A stretch of DNA of 7,123 nt from Candidatus Pacearchaeota archaeon (GTDB taxonomy: Archaea > Nanoarchaeota > Nanoarchaeia > Pacearchaeales > GW2011-AR1), in the NCBI GenBank assembly GCA_002690445.1, contig NZER01000306.1:1-7123 (forward strand), given 5' to 3'. The translations under genes and the position numbers were made by a program. Positions 49 through 7,083 of the stretch are shown in pieces. The notes under the pieces are model-generated. The model made no database searches and was not told where the DNA came from. It saw nothing but the letters and a program-made list of their open reading frames with translations. Numbering within the stretch: the first letter of the stretch is position 1; the number at the start of each line of letters is the position of its first letter.

Positions 49-158
49 TTATCAGTATCTCCCCAGTTAATTATATCATAATTGTCCCTGCAATTGGGAG
101 AAAATCCTCCTCGGGGTTTATCACCTTTACCCGCTCCTTTGTTTTTGGGCTCTTTCAA
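1..158 (-). CDS. Small phage protein of the GKGD-x-PR type (partial, TTG start)
   Basis: An open frame from TTG at 158 to the window edge (52 codons, no stop) encodes an N-terminus with GKGDKPR at about residues 11-17 and DNYDIINWGD at about 25-34. From memory, small hypothetical phage proteins of roughly 50-70 residues often have this pattern (KGD-x-PR, then NYD-x-I); their function is unknown. There is no in-frame ATG; a stop lies directly before the TTG, so TTG is the only start within reach and its ribosome site is weak. The frame overlaps the end of the HNH gene by 32 bases, and the zinc-ribbon start at 48 lies inside it in another frame. After residue 37 the translation becomes basic and featureless, so a frameshift near base 50 is possible. 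The assignment rests on motif memory only. Confidence 0.4.
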   Translation of the reverse strand, partial: MKEPKNKGAGKGDKPRGGFSPNCRDNYDIINWGDTDKCPNAPSARKSSKKPN

Positions 159-744
159 TTATTTCTTTATATTTTATGTATTCCTCAATAGAAACCATTT
201 TGTCTCGAGACAATTTCCCTTTGTCTGCCAATTTATGTGAGTTGGGGCACATGGGTGCTAAGTTCGAAATGGAATCATCTCTCCCCTCTCTCCTCGGTTT
301 GATGTGATGCATCTCGCATACCATATCATTAGCCTCCAAAAACGCCGTCGTCCAGCCGCACCCACAATCTATAACCAAGCAAGGTATTCTTCCATACTTT
401 TTCTTAATCTTGCCTGCAATATGATAAACGTGATTTTCGGGCTTACTGTTATACTCTTTGCTCTTTTTACGTTTTTGGTGTCTCCGGCAATTTGTAGAGC
501 AGTATTTGGCTTGAGGCATTACATTATAAAAAGTGTCGCCACATATCTCGCACTTCAACTTATGCGGTTTTCTTTGTGCGTTGCTGTGGTAGGCCCCACA
601 GCTTTGGGTACAAAATCTGCCGTCCCCTTTGTTTATTTCTGTTACTGTAGCTTTGAATTCCTTCCCACAGCCTTCCCAAAGACACTTACGAACATGAGCA
701 TCACGCCATCGATCTCCTACGAGTTTTTTTACTATTTTTTCCAT
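127..744 (-). CDS. HNH endonuclease with two N-terminal zinc fingers (second of a pair)
   Basis: This 205-residue protein is predicted to be a metal-dependent DNA nicking or cleaving enzyme. It opens with two Cys4 modules: Cys21/Cys26 with Cys45/Cys49, and Cys65/Cys68 with Cys82/Cys86. A basic stretch follows (RRHQKRKKSK, 87-96). The C-terminal HNH domain has Cys122/Cys127 (and Cys129), the His146-His147 pair, Asn161 and His170 in a CPNSH motif. In the neighbouring paralogue this motif is CPVCH, so the last structural cysteine is Ser169 here; zinc may be bound differently or the fold may be less stable. The ATG at 744 lies inside the preceding HNH gene (13-base overlap, -1 frame), and only a weak, distant GAAGAG precedes it, so coupled translation is likely. 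It could be a free-standing homing endonuclease or a phage DNA-processing nuclease; the HNH call is firm, the role is not. Confidence 0.82.
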   Translation of the reverse strand: MEKIVKKLVGDRWRDAHVRKCLWEGCGKEFKATVTEINKGDGRFCTQSCGAYHSNAQRKPHKLKCEICGDTFYNVMPQAKYCSTNCRRHQKRKKSKEYNSKPENHVYHIAGKIKKKYGRIPCLVIDCGCGWTTAFLEANDMVCEMHHIKPRREGRDDSISNLAPMCPNSHKLADKGKLSRDKMVSIEEYIKYKEIIERAQKQRSG

Positions 745-1544
745 GGCATAGCTTGCTCTTCAGTTATAAATCTTTTTTCTATGAGATAATCTATTTTGGA
801 AATTTTTCTGCCTCCACCGGTTAAGACTTCTTGGAGAATTTTTGGGTCTAAAGTTTTCATATAGTCGAAAATGGTTATATAATCGTCCGATGTTAGCAAG
901 TCGTTATCCAAATACCTGTGGCATACTGGACATGCCGCAACAAGATTATAGAGGTGGTCCGGACCGCCATCGCTGTACTTAACTAAATGATGTACATCTA
1001 AATGGACTTTCTCGTTTTTGAAGTAAGTGCTTTCGGTATATCCGCTGCGGCAATCCTTTATGCCGCACCCCATAGGGCCCAAAGCGTTTCTGAGCTTGAA
1101 GGGAATTTTGGCGTCTCTCTTTTTCGAATTCTTCCAGTTATTGTTTTTAGCCGCCTCGATTGAATATCTCCACTGCTCATTTAAGCAAAGACGAGATTCG
1201 TACCTCGATATTTTTTTTCTTTTTTTGTACTCGGTTTCGCACTTTGGCTTACCACAACAGTAACCTCTCCTCCGGCACGGTTTCTCCCCTTTTTTAATCT
1301 TCTCTACATCAGATTGTATCATTTGGAACGGATCTCCGCAAATTTTACAGTGGTAGGTTATGCTGGTCGGTTTCTTTTTATTGGCGTTAGCTATATTGTT
1401 TTTCCCCTTACCCGCGCATACTGGGTTGCAGTAGCTAGTGGAATAAAGATTAAGCTGGCTCGGCAACCTGAAGAGCCCGTTGCCGCAAAATGAACATTCC
1501 GTATTAGGTGTTCTCTCTTTTGTTTTTGCAAACGTCGCAGTCAC
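732..1544 (-). CDS. HNH endonuclease with two N-terminal zinc fingers (first of a pair)
   Basis: A 270-residue protein with the same plan as its downstream neighbour. Finger 1 is Cys17/Cys20 with Cys39/Cys43; finger 2 is Cys66/Cys69 with Cys97/Cys102. A lysine-rich linker leads to a complete HNH (beta-beta-alpha metal) domain: Cys160/Cys165 and Cys205/Cys208 as structural zinc ligands, His185-His186 as the catalytic pair, Asn200, and His209 in CPVCH. The final 30 or so residues form a short tail. The start is GTG at 1544; an in-frame stop at 1559-1557 leaves no ATG alternative, and the GAG upstream is rather far (11 bases), so initiation may be weak. A 66-base gap containing a palindrome separates it from the nuclease gene upstream. 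The last codons (AAA AAA TAG) form a six-A run overlapping the start of the next gene. Homing and phage DNA processing are both possible roles. Confidence 0.85.
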   Translation of the reverse strand: MTATFAKTKERTPNTECSFCGNGLFRLPSQLNLYSTSYCNPVCAGKGKNNIANANKKKPTSITYHCKICGDPFQMIQSDVEKIKKGEKPCRRRGYCCGKPKCETEYKKRKKISRYESRLCLNEQWRYSIEAAKNNNWKNSKKRDAKIPFKLRNALGPMGCGIKDCRSGYTESTYFKNEKVHLDVHHLVKYSDGGPDHLYNLVAACPVCHRYLDNDLLTSDDYITIFDYMKTLDPKILQEVLTGGGRKISKIDYLIEKRFITEEQAMPWKK

Positions 1545-2673: not shown

Positions 2674-3387
2674 TCACTTCTTTTGCATCCGTTCAATGAT
2701 TTCAAACATTTTAATACGGGGAATATCTTTAATAGACCCCCACCCGTCTGCCCCGTCCACAGCTTCCTTTACCATTTTGTCTTTGATGACGGAAAAATTG
2801 ATCTTTTTCTCCTTCATCAAGTTGGTCAGGTAAATGTCGGGTGAAGCGGAATTCTTATTTGGGCTAGGTTTTGATATCTTCACGTTTTTAATTTCCTCCT
2901 TAGCTACTATGTTGATGCGCAAGAAGTTGCGAACGGCTCGACAAAAAGCGCGATTTTCAGCTATTGCTGCCAAATACATCTGGCCAAAGCCCTCGGTGTT
3001 ATTTAGTCCAGCATCAGCTACGCTCTGAAAGAGAATAGACTCTCCATTCTCGGTTTCGTAATTTCCCATCCAAACTATCGAACATGAAACGCACACATAT
3101 TCGGAAGAAGCGTGTGTCACTGTGTAGGTAACAGAGTGGTAACCTCGAATATTAGCAAGATCCTTAAGCCCCCCGAGCAGAATAATTAACTCATAGTCTT
3201 CGAGCTTGGAAATGTCGGTTTCGTCAGTTCTATCTCTATTAGCAACCAGAAACTCTGGTTTGATCATTTTCCGCCAGTTGACTGACCCGTCATCATTAAA
3301 GACGTAATTAATTTTTTTATTCTCTAACAGACCGTACTGGTTCCGTTTGATCATAACCGGCGGCTTATTTATAACAGCAGTTCCCAT
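2674..3387 (-). CDS. Putative single-strand annealing / recombination protein
   Basis: A 237-residue protein. An N-terminal segment with conserved-looking text (NWRKMIKPEFLV, 37-48; DISKLEDYELIILLGG, 58-73) leads to a strand-rich region (VTYTVTHASSEYVCVSCSIVW) and then an alanine/arginine helix, AIAENRAFCRAVRNFLRI (141-158). This helix resembles the A-E-x-R-A-x-x-R-A-x-R motif seen in Rad52/Sak/Erf-like phage annealing proteins and relatives. A linker of about 20 residues precedes a small C-terminal helical domain (184-237) ending near DIPRIKMFEIIERM. Annealing proteins coat ssDNA and pair complementary strands during phage replication. The neighbours fit this: an SSB-like gene upstream in the operon and two nuclease-like genes directly downstream. 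ATG at 3387 has only AGGG three bases upstream. Similarity was judged by eye; another ssDNA-related phage protein is possible. Confidence 0.55.
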   Translation of the reverse strand: MGTAVINKPPVMIKRNQYGLLENKKINYVFNDDGSVNWRKMIKPEFLVANRDRTDETDISKLEDYELIILLGGLKDLANIRGYHSVTYTVTHASSEYVCVSCSIVWMGNYETENGESILFQSVADAGLNNTEGFGQMYLAAIAENRAFCRAVRNFLRINIVAKEEIKNVKISKPSPNKNSASPDIYLTNLMKEKKINFSVIKDKMVKEAVDGADGWGSIKDIPRIKMFEIIERMQKK

Positions 3388-3425: not shown

Positions 3426-4607
3426 CTACTTTTTAACAAAAAAATGGAAGTGCTCTTCCTCTTCCCAAAACAAAGGATCATCAATTACTGGATAAGGTTC
3501 GTGCTCCATAGTAGAGGAGCCATGATCGAGCCTTAAGAAAGCTGCTGTGTTTGGGTAAAATTTATTATTATGAACAATAAAGTGAGTGGATTTATAATAA
3601 AGATTTTTAAGATCTTTAAGCTCTTCGAAATCATTTTGGGAGCGTGGAAGAATGCGCTCAACAAGACCATAATCTAAATAGTCCAACTTAAAGTCGTTTG
3701 TTTGTTCTTCTTTTTTTCGGCTTCGCATTAAATATTGTATAGATTTTTCTTTGGTCTTTTTAATAAAAGCGGGATCGTTATCATCTTCTATGTAATAAAC
3801 CAGCTCTACAATTTTTTTATGGTACTGGTTTAAGATTTTATCGCTTAAGGGTCTGTTGGTGATGACAGAACACACACAGGAATCGAGTTGTTTGCAGAGC
3901 GCCTCCTCATCAAAATTTAAATCCATTCGCATTATCAGAGACGAAACTCCCAATTTTTGCGCGTCTAAGAGATGGGTAAGGGCAGATTCTATTCTTGGGC
4001 GGCGTAAAGAGTTTCCTATTTTAACCGTTTTAAATTCGGGCGCGAAGGTGTGTATTCCAGCCAAGTTAAGGATTTTTTTGGCTACATCTTCGGGTTTGAT
4101 AGTGTTAATGGACTTGGGGTTCTCGTTGGGATTAAACGATGGTTTGTGAGAACTGTACGGCTTAAGGATTTCCAAGTTGTCCTTGTCCGTCCAGTAGGGA
4201 AGAAATTGGCTTGGATAACAATTATTGGAAAACAGTACAACCGACTTCTTGTTGTAAACTGAAGCTAGATGGGAAGATTCATTGTTGGGGCAAGCGTGCA
4301 CTAGTGATTTACGTAATACGTAGGCTTTTTGGTTGAAATTACATTGCCCAAGGGTCATATAGCATTGACGAAGCGGAATACAGTCTTTGTTGCCCAATTG
4401 AATAATTTTAATACCCTCCTCTTCCAGCTTTGGGTGGATAAGGTCAACGACAAGCTGCCAATGATCATAAACCAACGCTGAAGTTCCCAAGTTAGACGTA
4501 TCAATAGTTATAAATTTATCAATTGCTAGAGGGAAGTATTTTTCATAAACACTGGCTTTGTCGATTTTTAAATCGTTTTGTAACGCATATGATTCTAAGA
4601 TGTGCAT
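3426..4607 (-). CDS. GT9-like C-terminal half-domain fused to an unrecognised domain
   Basis: This 393-residue protein has two parts. Residues 1-150 read as the second half of a GT9 (ADP-heptose:LPS heptosyltransferase-like) GT-B enzyme: an opening HILESYA helix, a strand at 32-37 (FITIDT), the HW...LEEEGIKIIQLG unit (49-72), and an S-S-H-L-A motif at 111-115, comparable to the sugar-nucleotide-binding S-x-x-H region. The first half is encoded at the end of the upstream gene, so this protein probably needs that partner to be active. Residues about 185-393 form a domain I cannot name, with RRPRIESALTHLLDAQ, RMDLNFDEEAL, CSVITNRPLS and VELVYYIEDDND, and an acidic-aromatic C-terminus (WEEEEHFHFF). 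ATG at 4607 overlaps the upstream gene by 13 bases, in its -1 frame, with AGAGGT close upstream. A frameshift or a one-base sequence error could join the two genes. Confidence 0.7.
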   Translation of the reverse strand: MHILESYALQNDLKIDKASVYEKYFPLAIDKFITIDTSNLGTSALVYDHWQLVVDLIHPKLEEEGIKIIQLGNKDCIPLRQCYMTLGQCNFNQKAYVLRKSLVHACPNNESSHLASVYNKKSVVLFSNNCYPSQFLPYWTDKDNLEILKPYSSHKPSFNPNENPKSINTIKPEDVAKKILNLAGIHTFAPEFKTVKIGNSLRRPRIESALTHLLDAQKLGVSSLIMRMDLNFDEEALCKQLDSCVCSVITNRPLSDKILNQYHKKIVELVYYIEDDNDPAFIKKTKEKSIQYLMRSRKKEEQTNDFKLDYLDYGLVERILPRSQNDFEELKDLKNLYYKSTHFIVHNNKFYPNTAAFLRLDHGSSTMEHEPYPVIDDPLFWEEEEHFHFFVKK

Positions 4608-6517
4608 AATACCTCTTTGTTTACGTTGTCTTTTTCGTTGTGAATATAATTATTGGCTCGCTGGGTAGTCAAGTGAGGAGTGAAGGCGATTTCGAAATAC
4701 CCTTCATGGTCCCCTATACCCTCTAAGTACAGGGTATTATCAAATTGAGGGCTGTACGGTATGGTCTTGTGAACGTGTTCATTTCCGTCAAGAATGTGGA
4801 AATTTTCAGCTTTGGTAGCTACGTAGAGGTTGTAGTTGGGGTACTTCTTTTTAATAGATTTAAACAAAGCCGTAGAAAGGAAAACATCAACCGGAGACTC
4901 GGGAATTACATAAACGATGCGTTTCCCTTTGTCGTCTTTGTCCAAAAAGTCCTCTATCTTTACGGGGAAGTGTTTTTGGTTATGTTCTCGGGCCACTTTT
5001 CGGAAGTAGTCTTCGATTTGTTTACGAGGAACTTTATTTTCAAGGGACGTCATCCAAGTCTTGTACCCTTCGTCATTGGTGTGATTGTCCGTAGCTAGAA
5101 TATCTCTGTATAAAGTTAATACCCAATCCGAATTGCTTTCTATATTAGGGACAAGTGCATCTGGATTATTTTTTTTATGTTTTGCGGAGCCCTCTTCGTC
5201 AAAGTCATATTTTTGGACCTCCGTGTTGTCTATAAAGTCTTCAAAAAACTTCCCCACGGCTTCTACAGAAAACTTGTCTACGACCCATTGCCGTGCTATT
5301 TTCCCCTGCTCACCCCGATCTTGAGGGGGCATCTCATATACCTTATTTATGTTTTGGGCTATAGAATCGGGAGAAGTCGACGCTTTCTTAAACTCTGTTT
5401 GATGCTCTCGGTATTCCGACCATTCCAAAGGAATTGAGGCTGACCCTTCCTCACAGCTTTCTTCCCCACAGCTGTAATCCGTGACCAAAGTGATAAGCTC
5501 TGTTAGTTTAGCTTCTTGAATGGGAATTTCCTGACCTCCACTGGTAAAGGGGTGACAGTAAACGTCCATAAAATTGTAAACTTCATTCAGTTGATCCTCC
5601 CTTACTCCGAACCCCACGTTTGTGGTTACTTGAGATTTCGCCGTGGAGCACCGAGGGCAATCCTGATCTTCTCCATCATATTTTTTGACTTCGTAGTCTC
5701 CGCACTTTTTACAGACATGGGTGGTAAGAATTTCCGACTTATCTACACCATACTCTTCGGCCAGTTTATGGATACCCCACCCTTCTCTCCAGTAGGTGTG
5801 AAAAAGAAGATAGGTTTTTTTATTTGGTTTGTTTTCGGCTTTCCATTTGGCATACCCCTCTAAGAGATTTGGAACAGATTTTCTTAACTGATTTCTAAAT
5901 ACAAAACCTACAATAAAAGCATCTTTCTCTATGTTATTTTTTTCGCGAAGTTTTGATCTTTCTTCATCTTCTAAACGAAAGAAATTATTAGCATCAATAC
6001 ATCCGTGAACGGTTTTTACATGATCGTGGCCCATGGCGTTAAGGGCTTTTGTGGCGAAGGAGCTCCAAATCCAATAGTTTTTTATTTTGGGAGCATTGGT
6101 AATGGCGGTGGGGAGAATAGGGAGAGAGTCCAATGTTGTCCAAATAACTGAGTTTATTTTGTCAAACCACGGTTTTCCTACCGCAAATTCTGTTCCCCAT
6201 ATATCTTGAACCCCAAAATAAAAATCCGGCTTTTCTTCTTTGATTACCTTATCTATAAGATGGGCCCCGTAGCTGGCTAACCGAGCCTGTCCGGGGTCTT
6301 GGCCTATTCGATGACGCTCTGCGGGATCATCGGGAAGAGTTCCTATTGATTTCCATGGAGTTGTTTTTAAAATCGGGTTTGAATAATCCGTTCCGCAACA
6401 GTACTGGACAATTTCATATTTTTTGGTTCTGTATAGGTAAGACAAAAGGGCTTTGGCGTTTCTGCCAAAACCCGTCTTTGCTAAACTCGAGTCAGTTTGA
6501 AATAAAAGCTTCTTCAT
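4595..6517 (-). CDS. Multidomain glycosyltransferase: GT4-like, zinc ribbon insert, DUF4214-like, GT9 N-half
   Basis: About 640 residues from ATG at 6517. Residues 1-190 form a GT-B N-domain opening with LLFQTDSSLAKTGFGRN, whose Gly-rich loop is typical of GT4 enzymes. The C-domain (about 200-430) starts at FIVGFVFRNQLRKS and is interrupted by a zinc ribbon, Cys269/Cys272 and Cys287/Cys290, before the donor-site segment HPFTSGGQEIPIQEAK. The second Glu of the GT4 E-x7-E motif is Glu335; the first position is Gly327, with Glu330 nearby. A segment at 463-515 (WVLTLYRDIL ... GYKTWMTSL ... VPRKQIEDYF) matches the DUF4214 pattern. From about 532 the protein reads as a GT9 N-domain (KRIVYVIPESPVDVFLSTAL ... 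KKKYP) and stops where the next gene continues it. The donor and acceptor are unknown: virion or surface glycan, or modified DNA. A TTG two codons upstream is possible, but TAATG coupling to the SSB-like stop favours this ATG. Confidence 0.8.
   Translation of the reverse strand: MKKLLFQTDSSLAKTGFGRNAKALLSYLYRTKKYEIVQYCCGTDYSNPILKTTPWKSIGTLPDDPAERHRIGQDPGQARLASYGAHLIDKVIKEEKPDFYFGVQDIWGTEFAVGKPWFDKINSVIWTTLDSLPILPTAITNAPKIKNYWIWSSFATKALNAMGHDHVKTVHGCIDANNFFRLEDEERSKLREKNNIEKDAFIVGFVFRNQLRKSVPNLLEGYAKWKAENKPNKKTYLLFHTYWREGWGIHKLAEEYGVDKSEILTTHVCKKCGDYEVKKYDGEDQDCPRCSTAKSQVTTNVGFGVREDQLNEVYNFMDVYCHPFTSGGQEIPIQEAKLTELITLVTDYSCGEESCEEGSASIPLEWSEYREHQTEFKKASTSPDSIAQNINKVYEMPPQDRGEQGKIARQWVVDKFSVEAVGKFFEDFIDNTEVQKYDFDEEGSAKHKKNNPDALVPNIESNSDWVLTLYRDILATDNHTNDEGYKTWMTSLENKVPRKQIEDYFRKVAREHNQKHFPVKIEDFLDKDDKGKRIVYVIPESPVDVFLSTALFKSIKKKYPNYNLYVATKAENFHILDGNEHVHKTIPYSPQFDNTLYLEGIGDHEGYFEIAFTPHLTTQRANNYIHNEKDNVNKEVLCTS
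4612..4616 (-). promoter_or_regulatory. Ribosome binding site inside the upstream glycosyltransferase gene
   Basis: AGAGG (part of AAAGAGGT) lies four bases before ATG at 4607, within the last codons of the upstream gene. The spacing is short, but the match is the clearest among the internal starts here. It supports separate, coupled initiation of the GT9 C-half protein rather than reliance on frameshifting alone. Confidence 0.45.
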
Positions 6518-7083
6518 TACCAAGGAACATCAAGGTCTACTTCTTGATTATTATCCTCGGTAGGAGCCGGAGTTTCTACTTTTTCCTCAGTCTTTTTGTT
6601 AGCTGGTGGGTGAGAGGTCCCGTATTGACTCTCTTCAATACAGTCCGTAAAATAATTATTTAAGACTGTGAGAGCGTACTGTTTTAGCATGCGGCCCTCC
6701 GCAAAATTAAACCCGATAATAAAGGATTTCTTGACTCCTTCTTTCTGGTTATTCTGGTTTAGGCTAAAGCTGTAGCCTATTTGGCTGCCGTCGCGGATGT
6801 AAGGACAGAATTTGAAAGTAGTATTTCTCTCCTTAGTGCCGTGAAAGTTTCCGTATTCTCCATTGGTTTCAATTGCGTGAACCAATCCTGCAAGCTCAGT
6901 TACACTGAACTTTGAGTTAGCCTTCTTTTCGGGACCGGAGCCCTTAAAGGTACCACTTTTTGTTTGGCCGTTCCAAGACGACTGTTTAATGAAATTTACC
7001 CACAAAGCCTTGTCATTCTTATTGTAAGAAAATGAGCAGGCTGAGCCGGTATTCTTCGCGTTAGGTTTATAGAACTGCAACAT
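6517..7083 (-). CDS. Putative phage ssDNA-binding protein
   Basis: A 188-residue protein. Residues 1-141 form a compact, strand-rich domain rich in aromatic and basic residues (FYKP, ALWVNFIKQSSW, NTTFKFCPYIRDG, IGYSFSL, KSFIIGFNFAEGRMLKQY), which looks like a small ssDNA-binding fold, possibly PC4/Whirly-like. A Pro/Glu/Lys/Thr-rich flexible linker follows (142-180), ending in the acidic tip EVDLDVPW. Bacterial SSBs end in a comparable acidic tip with a terminal aromatic (DDDIPF), and phage SSBs such as T7 gp2.5 also have acidic aromatic tails, which recruit replication and repair partners. The protein would coat ssDNA during phage replication and recombination. ATG at 7083 has no good ribosome site, so coupling to an upstream gene is likely. 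Its TAA overlaps the glycosyltransferase ATG (TAATG). The binding role is inferred from architecture and context, not from a confirmed family match. Confidence 0.6.
   Translation of the reverse strand: MLQFYKPNAKNTGSACSFSYNKNDKALWVNFIKQSSWNGQTKSGTFKGSGPEKKANSKFSVTELAGLVHAIETNGEYGNFHGTKERNTTFKFCPYIRDGSQIGYSFSLNQNNQKEGVKKSFIIGFNFAEGRMLKQYALTVLNNYFTDCIEESQYGTSHPPANKKTEEKVETPAPTEDNNQEVDLDVPW

Follow-up and report, generated by a model that had tools for sequence, protein, structure and literature searches.

A 7,123-nucleotide (nt) stretch of DNA, hereafter the window (contig NZER01000306.1 of assembly GCA_002690445.1, filed as Candidatus Pacearchaeota archaeon), carries on its minus strand two overlapping genes whose products, here called A and B, each hold one part of a glycosyltransferase domain of family GT9. 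The pair most likely represents a GT9-like enzyme made of two proteins and tethered to a GT4 enzyme. With a probability of roughly 80%, A and B come from an uncultured family of phages, are translated as separate proteins and dock into a single GT9-type enzyme of GT-B fold. The A gene (4595..6517, minus strand) encodes 640 amino acids (aa) from its ATG, with a TTG at 6523 as an alternative start, and the B gene (3426..4607, minus strand) encodes 393 aa. The two genes overlap by 13 bases (4595..4607, minus strand), B lying in the -1 frame relative to A, and AGAGGT can be read at 4611..4616 (minus strand), ahead of B's ATG. The initial annotation, made from the sequence alone, had reported this gene pair, and the observation is confirmed: both open reading frames (ORFs) are as it described them, the -1 frame, which it had placed open to about 4650, is open back to base 4649, and both AGAGGT and a run of five A residues at 4631-4635 are where it put them.

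The two proteins tile one GT9 domain. Aligned with hhalign, residues 528-640 of A (4598..4936, minus strand), the N-terminal part on the acceptor side, correspond to residues 1-115 of WaaF (probability 97.4%, E = 3.8e-11), and residues 1-185 of B (4053..4607, minus strand) correspond to WaaF residues 129-345 (99.2%, E = 8.7e-19); two other domains of A and B, taken as controls, gave 0.1% and 0.0%. The B segment comprises the last helix of the acceptor domain, the linker and the donor domain, and a fold search likewise assigns the first helix of B to the acceptor domain. Taken together, A's end and B's start match GT9 sequences over the whole length. Thus the proposal that A ends in an N-terminal GT9 part holds, as does the proposal that B begins with the continuation, although not "exactly", since about 13 residues of WaaF (116-128) are covered by neither half. 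The initial annotation overlooked what else the two proteins contain, namely, in A, a complete GT4 enzyme formed by residues 1-436, an insert resembling a zinc ribbon and a region resembling DUF4214, and in B a second, C-terminal domain. Pfam gives no GT9 match for either half in the window copies, a caution for annotation, and PF01075 is found in 45 of 56 B members.

The split is true and general in the family. Six scans of viral contigs, in which the best 80 loci were kept wherever more matched, one scan of genome contigs and the loci of a genome search together gave 274 loci, 146 of them distinct; A1, A2 and A3 were built from 56, 40 and 26 chosen sequences. The initial annotation had proposed aligning both proteins to homologues to see whether they are fused or split, and they are split: the GT9 halves lie on separate ORFs in 139 of the 146 distinct loci and on one ORF in none. 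The remaining seven show the A part only (L246, at a contig end) or B only (six loci, one of them, L275, truncated). Among protein relatives of the A end, the 120 listed of 281 are all of 645 aa or less, in a search that admitted lengths of up to 1,120 aa; the search with B had a length limit under which fusions could not have appeared.

Both halves are under purifying selection, with median ratios of nonsynonymous to synonymous substitution rates of 0.05 and 0.098, computed from pairs at 80-97% DNA identity only. The two GT9 halves also covary across the proteins. Covariation was counted as residue pairs with corrected mutual information above 4 standard deviations, per 10,000 pairs, in 96 rows of less than 90% identity drawn from 238 complete pairs. 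The GT9 part of A against that of B gave 62.1, near the values within these parts (68.9 in A and 84.4 in B) and above those within the GT4 domain (23.9) and within B's other domain (33.4). This is about 6 to 13 times the figures for the five other pairs of different domains: 8.3 for the GT9 part of A with B's other domain, 5.3 for GT4 with the GT9 part of B, 4.7 for GT4 with the GT9 part of A, 10.7 for the two domains of B, and 5.4 for GT4 with B's other domain. The GT9-GT9 pair ranked first in 40 of 40 subsamples; it stood at 42.3 against at most 12.0 for other pairs when residues 541-543 were left out, and at 18.0 against at most 7.1 in the 63 rows with Gly543 only. An earlier run gave slightly different numbers of similar magnitude. 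The strongest couplings join B residues 6-16 to A residues 553, 592 and 617-634, and A residues 542-543 to B residues 36-45, 89-94 and 108-113.

The A residues 542-543 of the last set stand beside Asp544 (4886..4888, minus strand), the equivalent of HepI D13. In work on HepI (PMC5713226), D13, K192 and D261 are located in the active site and D13 is proposed as the catalytic base. Position 544 of A is Asp in 136 of 137 distinct sequences. The equivalent of D261 is B residue 108, Asp in 109 and Asn in 30 of 143 distinct sequences, and B residue 45, a near-equivalent of K192 by reading of the alignment, is Lys in 67 and Arg in 49 of the 143 (116 with either). All 63 rows with Gly543 keep both Asp108 and Lys/Arg45, whereas 23 of the 33 rows without Gly543 lack Asp108 and 19 lack Lys/Arg45. 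On a tree of the GT4 domain, sites 543, 108 and 45 change at least 11, 6 and 7 times, respectively, and the likelihood ratios for dependent evolution, 26.5 (543-108) and 25.6 (543-45), exceed those of all 60 control columns run, out of 143 possible.

Several observations weigh against a docked two-protein enzyme. The last 22 residues of A have a predicted local distance difference test score (pLDDT) below 50 when A is modelled alone. The profile of the A end, compared with PDB sequences, reached 1psw only at E = 0.85, in the sixth of nine rows, and in a structure search with A the matches were all taken up by the GT4 domain, none bearing on the GT9 part. Covariation can be inflated by shared ancestry. 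One of the 60 control columns reaches a likelihood ratio of 24.1, and a test on independent pairs at supported branches found only three pairs for site 543, none of them opposite, which is not significant. Two weaker couplings among the top ones, A592-B346 and A589-B246, fall outside the GT9 part of B. The remaining points are the active-site residues of the window copy, which lacks two of the three key ones, having Asn108 (4284..4286, minus strand) and Leu45 (4473..4475, minus strand) at the D261 and K192 equivalents, with Val543 besides, and the existence of loci with B and no A nearby. Each of these two leads to an alternative of its own.

The first alternative is that the complex forms but that its GT9 site is dead in the window's clade, the unit serving the GT4 enzyme as a scaffold or regulator. 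It is a sub-case of the docked enzyme, the odds of the two overlapping, and we regard it as possible but on balance doubtful. Because of Val543, Leu45 and Asn108 the window's GT9 site is possibly inactive; the loss of Gly543 tends to go with that of Lys/Arg45 and Asp108, and selection on both halves persists across the family, as such a role would have it. Against it stand the near-invariance of Asp544 and the consideration that the changed neighbouring residues may suit a different donor. Judged from its residues, the GT9 chemistry of the window's own clade may be changed or lost, and the window copy appears GT9-like by fold and descent and is not a proven GT9 enzyme.

The second alternative, which we consider improbable, is that B is free-standing, a GT9 donor-type domain working alone or with its own C-terminal domain, next to which the GT9 remnant of A merely happens to lie. 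B modelled alone adopts a confident fold (mean pLDDT 92.8), and it occurs without A nearby in five distinct loci (L115, L138, L150, L168 and L261), where it follows a gene of 113-132 aa that is of membrane type by reading of the translations; the small gene of L138 matches DUF1360 at E = 0.0018, below the cut-off. In the L150 group, a 142 kb record showed no A-type GT9 part, which was present in three control records, no GT4 family match and no full-length A match, the last in a search run without a positive control. This record may be a fragment; either A lies in the unsequenced part or B is able to work alone in that group. The 9.9 kb record of L261 was searched with two Pfam families only. 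In the record of L138, a GT4-type gene of 361 aa lies on the opposite strand, some 3.5 kb away from B (E = 3.4e-5, below the Pfam cut-off), and it matched none of five profiles (GT4, DUF4214, both GT9 parts and B's end) at E = 10. A free-standing B is hard to square, however, with the end of A covarying with the GT9 part of B far more than with B's C-terminal domain, with the match to the catalytic aspartate sitting on A, and with the first helix of B belonging to the acceptor domain. As a separate observation, a deaminase-like ORF was read in the translations further upstream of B in L115, L168 and L261.

The geometry of the junctions bears on whether A and B are made as two proteins. For these, 255 loci were used, those lacking either part being skipped, and 132 distinct junctions were told apart by the 400 nt around B's start. 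The spacing between A and B ranges from -17 to +15 nt in 118 of them and is 192-683 nt in the other 14. The commonest values are +14 (23 junctions), -14 (20), -13 (19), -1 (9) and +7 (9); since the window's 13-base overlap recurs in 19 junctions, its arrangement is not the chance of one contig. Closest to where B is expected to begin, the start codon is ATG in 129 junctions and GTG in three. A Shine-Dalgarno core precedes B in 38 of the 132, compared with 6.2% of random windows in B. Of the three readings offered by the initial annotation, the two-subunit enzyme is favoured, and its coupled translation is an inference, a Shine-Dalgarno core standing before B in those 38 junctions and the genes being 192-683 nt apart in 14.

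The other two readings do not survive. Programmed -1 frameshifting near the overlap, yielding some A-B fusion of over 1,000 residues, is very unlikely. The window does have the five-A run and a -1 frame that is open ahead of B's ATG, but only for 14 codons, and of the 19 junctions that share the 13-base overlap, 10 have this frame opening only 9 nt before the ATG. A string resembling X-XXY-YYZ, in some frame, occurs in three of these 19 junctions and is missing from the other 16; by eye there is none in the window's overlap region either, in agreement with the initial annotation, which had found no classical slippery heptamer. Among other relatives the overlap is in the +1 relation, or A and B share a frame with a stop between them (7 of 101 junctions in an earlier count), or the frame of B opens only past A's stop (39 of the 132, junctions with inserted DNA included), so that the junction is not conserved as a slippery site would be. 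Neither a single frameshift mechanism nor sequencing error could give rise to such a range of spacings and frames. A single gene disrupted by a one-base error of sequencing or assembly can be dismissed: two loci do show a break inside A that is possibly of that kind, but the arrangement recurs across the distinct loci, none of which is fused, and the 120 A-end proteins listed stop short of fusion length. An earlier comparison of the frameshift and error readings used 90 loci, and the search showing the breaks inside A used 169. These breaks, which interrupt the frame at or before the GT9 part, lie around 2964-2974 in L018 (the same contig as L097) and around 3507-3528 in L125; each is either an assembly error or a true break.

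Under the favoured reading, a two-protein enzyme, B would have a translation start of its own, and where the two genes touch, ribosomes that finish A would aid initiation there. A's C-terminal and B's N-terminal part would then dock and rebuild one GT-B fold, to which A would contribute the acceptor side with the catalytic Asp544, and B the last helix of the acceptor domain with the nucleotide-sugar-binding domain. The resulting A:B complex would hold two glycosyltransferase sites, GT4 and GT9, and would probably transfer two sugars, one after the other, to a glycan of the phage or its host, building a short glycan.

Precedents exist for dividing a GT-B enzyme. As described in PMC8993221, Alg13 and Alg14 of eukaryotes form one GT-B enzyme from a donor-side and an acceptor-side protein whose interaction is required for activity, and EpsE/EpsF of bacteria and archaea is a split GT-B glycosyltransferase. 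A and B resemble Alg14/Alg13 and EpsE/EpsF in placing acceptor and donor parts on separate polypeptides, and would function on a like principle; however, those pairs are members of the MurG-related GT1/GT28 group, divided between their N- and C-terminal domains, whereas A and B are of the GT9 type and are cut inside the acceptor domain, and each of their halves is fused to something extra, a GT4 enzyme in one case and a further domain in the other. To our knowledge, the split glycosyltransferases known so far all lie in the MurG-related group. A literature search of partial coverage, which is no proof of absence, turned up no paper recognised as dealing with a GT9 enzyme in two parts or with a phage glycosyltransferase carrying DUF4214. 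With WaaC and WaaF of E. coli and with TibC, the pair shares the fold, the Asp next to Gly and the Lys/Arg site, and in most relatives an Asp-Ser...His motif; those are single-chain enzymes, in contrast to the split pair and its altered window copy. Not all GT9 genes of these phages are split, since L291 (1009-2160) is a GT9-like gene on one ORF (384 aa, PF01075 at E = 7e-10), and its 170 kb record contains a close relative of the A/B pair as well. By reading of its translation, the L291 product also has the N-terminal GT9 part with the Gly-Asp motif.

Homing endonucleases fracture phage genes, leaving adjacent genes for the parts of one protein. The adjacency of A and B is alike, but no nuclease gene was seen in the seven inserts examined, taken from among the 14 junctions whose genes are 192-683 nt apart. 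Inserts of 631-683 nt occur in 11 junctions, and in the five of these that were read (L024, L033, L046, L077 and L111) a single gene of 213-232 aa exactly fills the gap between A and B; those of L024, L077 and L111, the three tested, are Anp1-like glycosyltransferases. The insert of L108 holds a 72-aa ORF without a family and that of L177 a DUF6165 gene. The inserted genes fit a glycosylation cluster whose members are exchanged. Two adjacent genes of HNH endonuclease type lie elsewhere in the window (127-744 and 732-1544, minus strand; PF01844 at E = 2.1e-6 and 1e-7) and overlap by 13 bases. An origin of the split by homing endonuclease was considered on their account, and nothing seen in the seven inserts between A and B supports it.

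As to its other domains, A begins with a complete GT4 GT-B fold (residues 1-436; 5210..6517, minus strand), for which PF00534 scores 24 bits in the window copy, slightly below the Pfam cut-off of 26.4. This GT4-type glycosyltransferase contains a zinc-ribbon-like CxxC...CxxC insert (residues 269-290; 5648..5713, minus strand) whose four cysteines, C269, C272, C287 and C290, are invariant across 40 aligned A members; the insert matched zinc-ribbon families only weakly. A DUF4214-like helical region (residues about 461-516; 4970..5137, minus strand) separates the GT4 domain from the GT9 part, PF13946 being found in 35 of the 40 members (best E = 1.9e-6) and not reported for the window copy itself. 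The C-terminal domain of B (residues 192-393; 3429..4034, minus strand) is an alpha/beta domain with a confident model, barely covered by the fold search and without GT9 similarity in the profile comparison. In one metagenome protein (P0229), B sequence covering approximately its first 240 residues continues into a DUF6445-like terminus (PF20043 at E = 7.3e-7), possibly through a deletion. Among cultured phages A matches S-CBS4 only, in two records of that one phage and over the GT4 part of A, and B has no match. The genes flanking B (2674-3387, minus strand) and A (6517-7083, minus strand) look alike in L011 and L177 by reading of translations; they have no good family match and no match in cultured phages. 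Scans of the window with Rfam, at the gathering threshold, and for tRNAs were empty.

If the favoured reading is true, the family provides an independent example of a split glycosyltransferase in GT9, in the form of 139 distinct natural loci with both halves. These loci point to possible contacts by which one half holds the other, and they show joint retention or loss of active-site residues across the two proteins. More speculatively, and with odds that we would not call even, this could be the first GT9-type enzyme of two polypeptides, cut in its acceptor domain and with a GT4 enzyme permanently tethered to one half, an assembly-line pair whose GT4 product would be handed to a GT9 site formed only on docking of B. 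Phages could then swap B to change the second sugar, and the loci with B only, together with the glycosyltransferase genes inserted between A and B, might be stages of such exchange.

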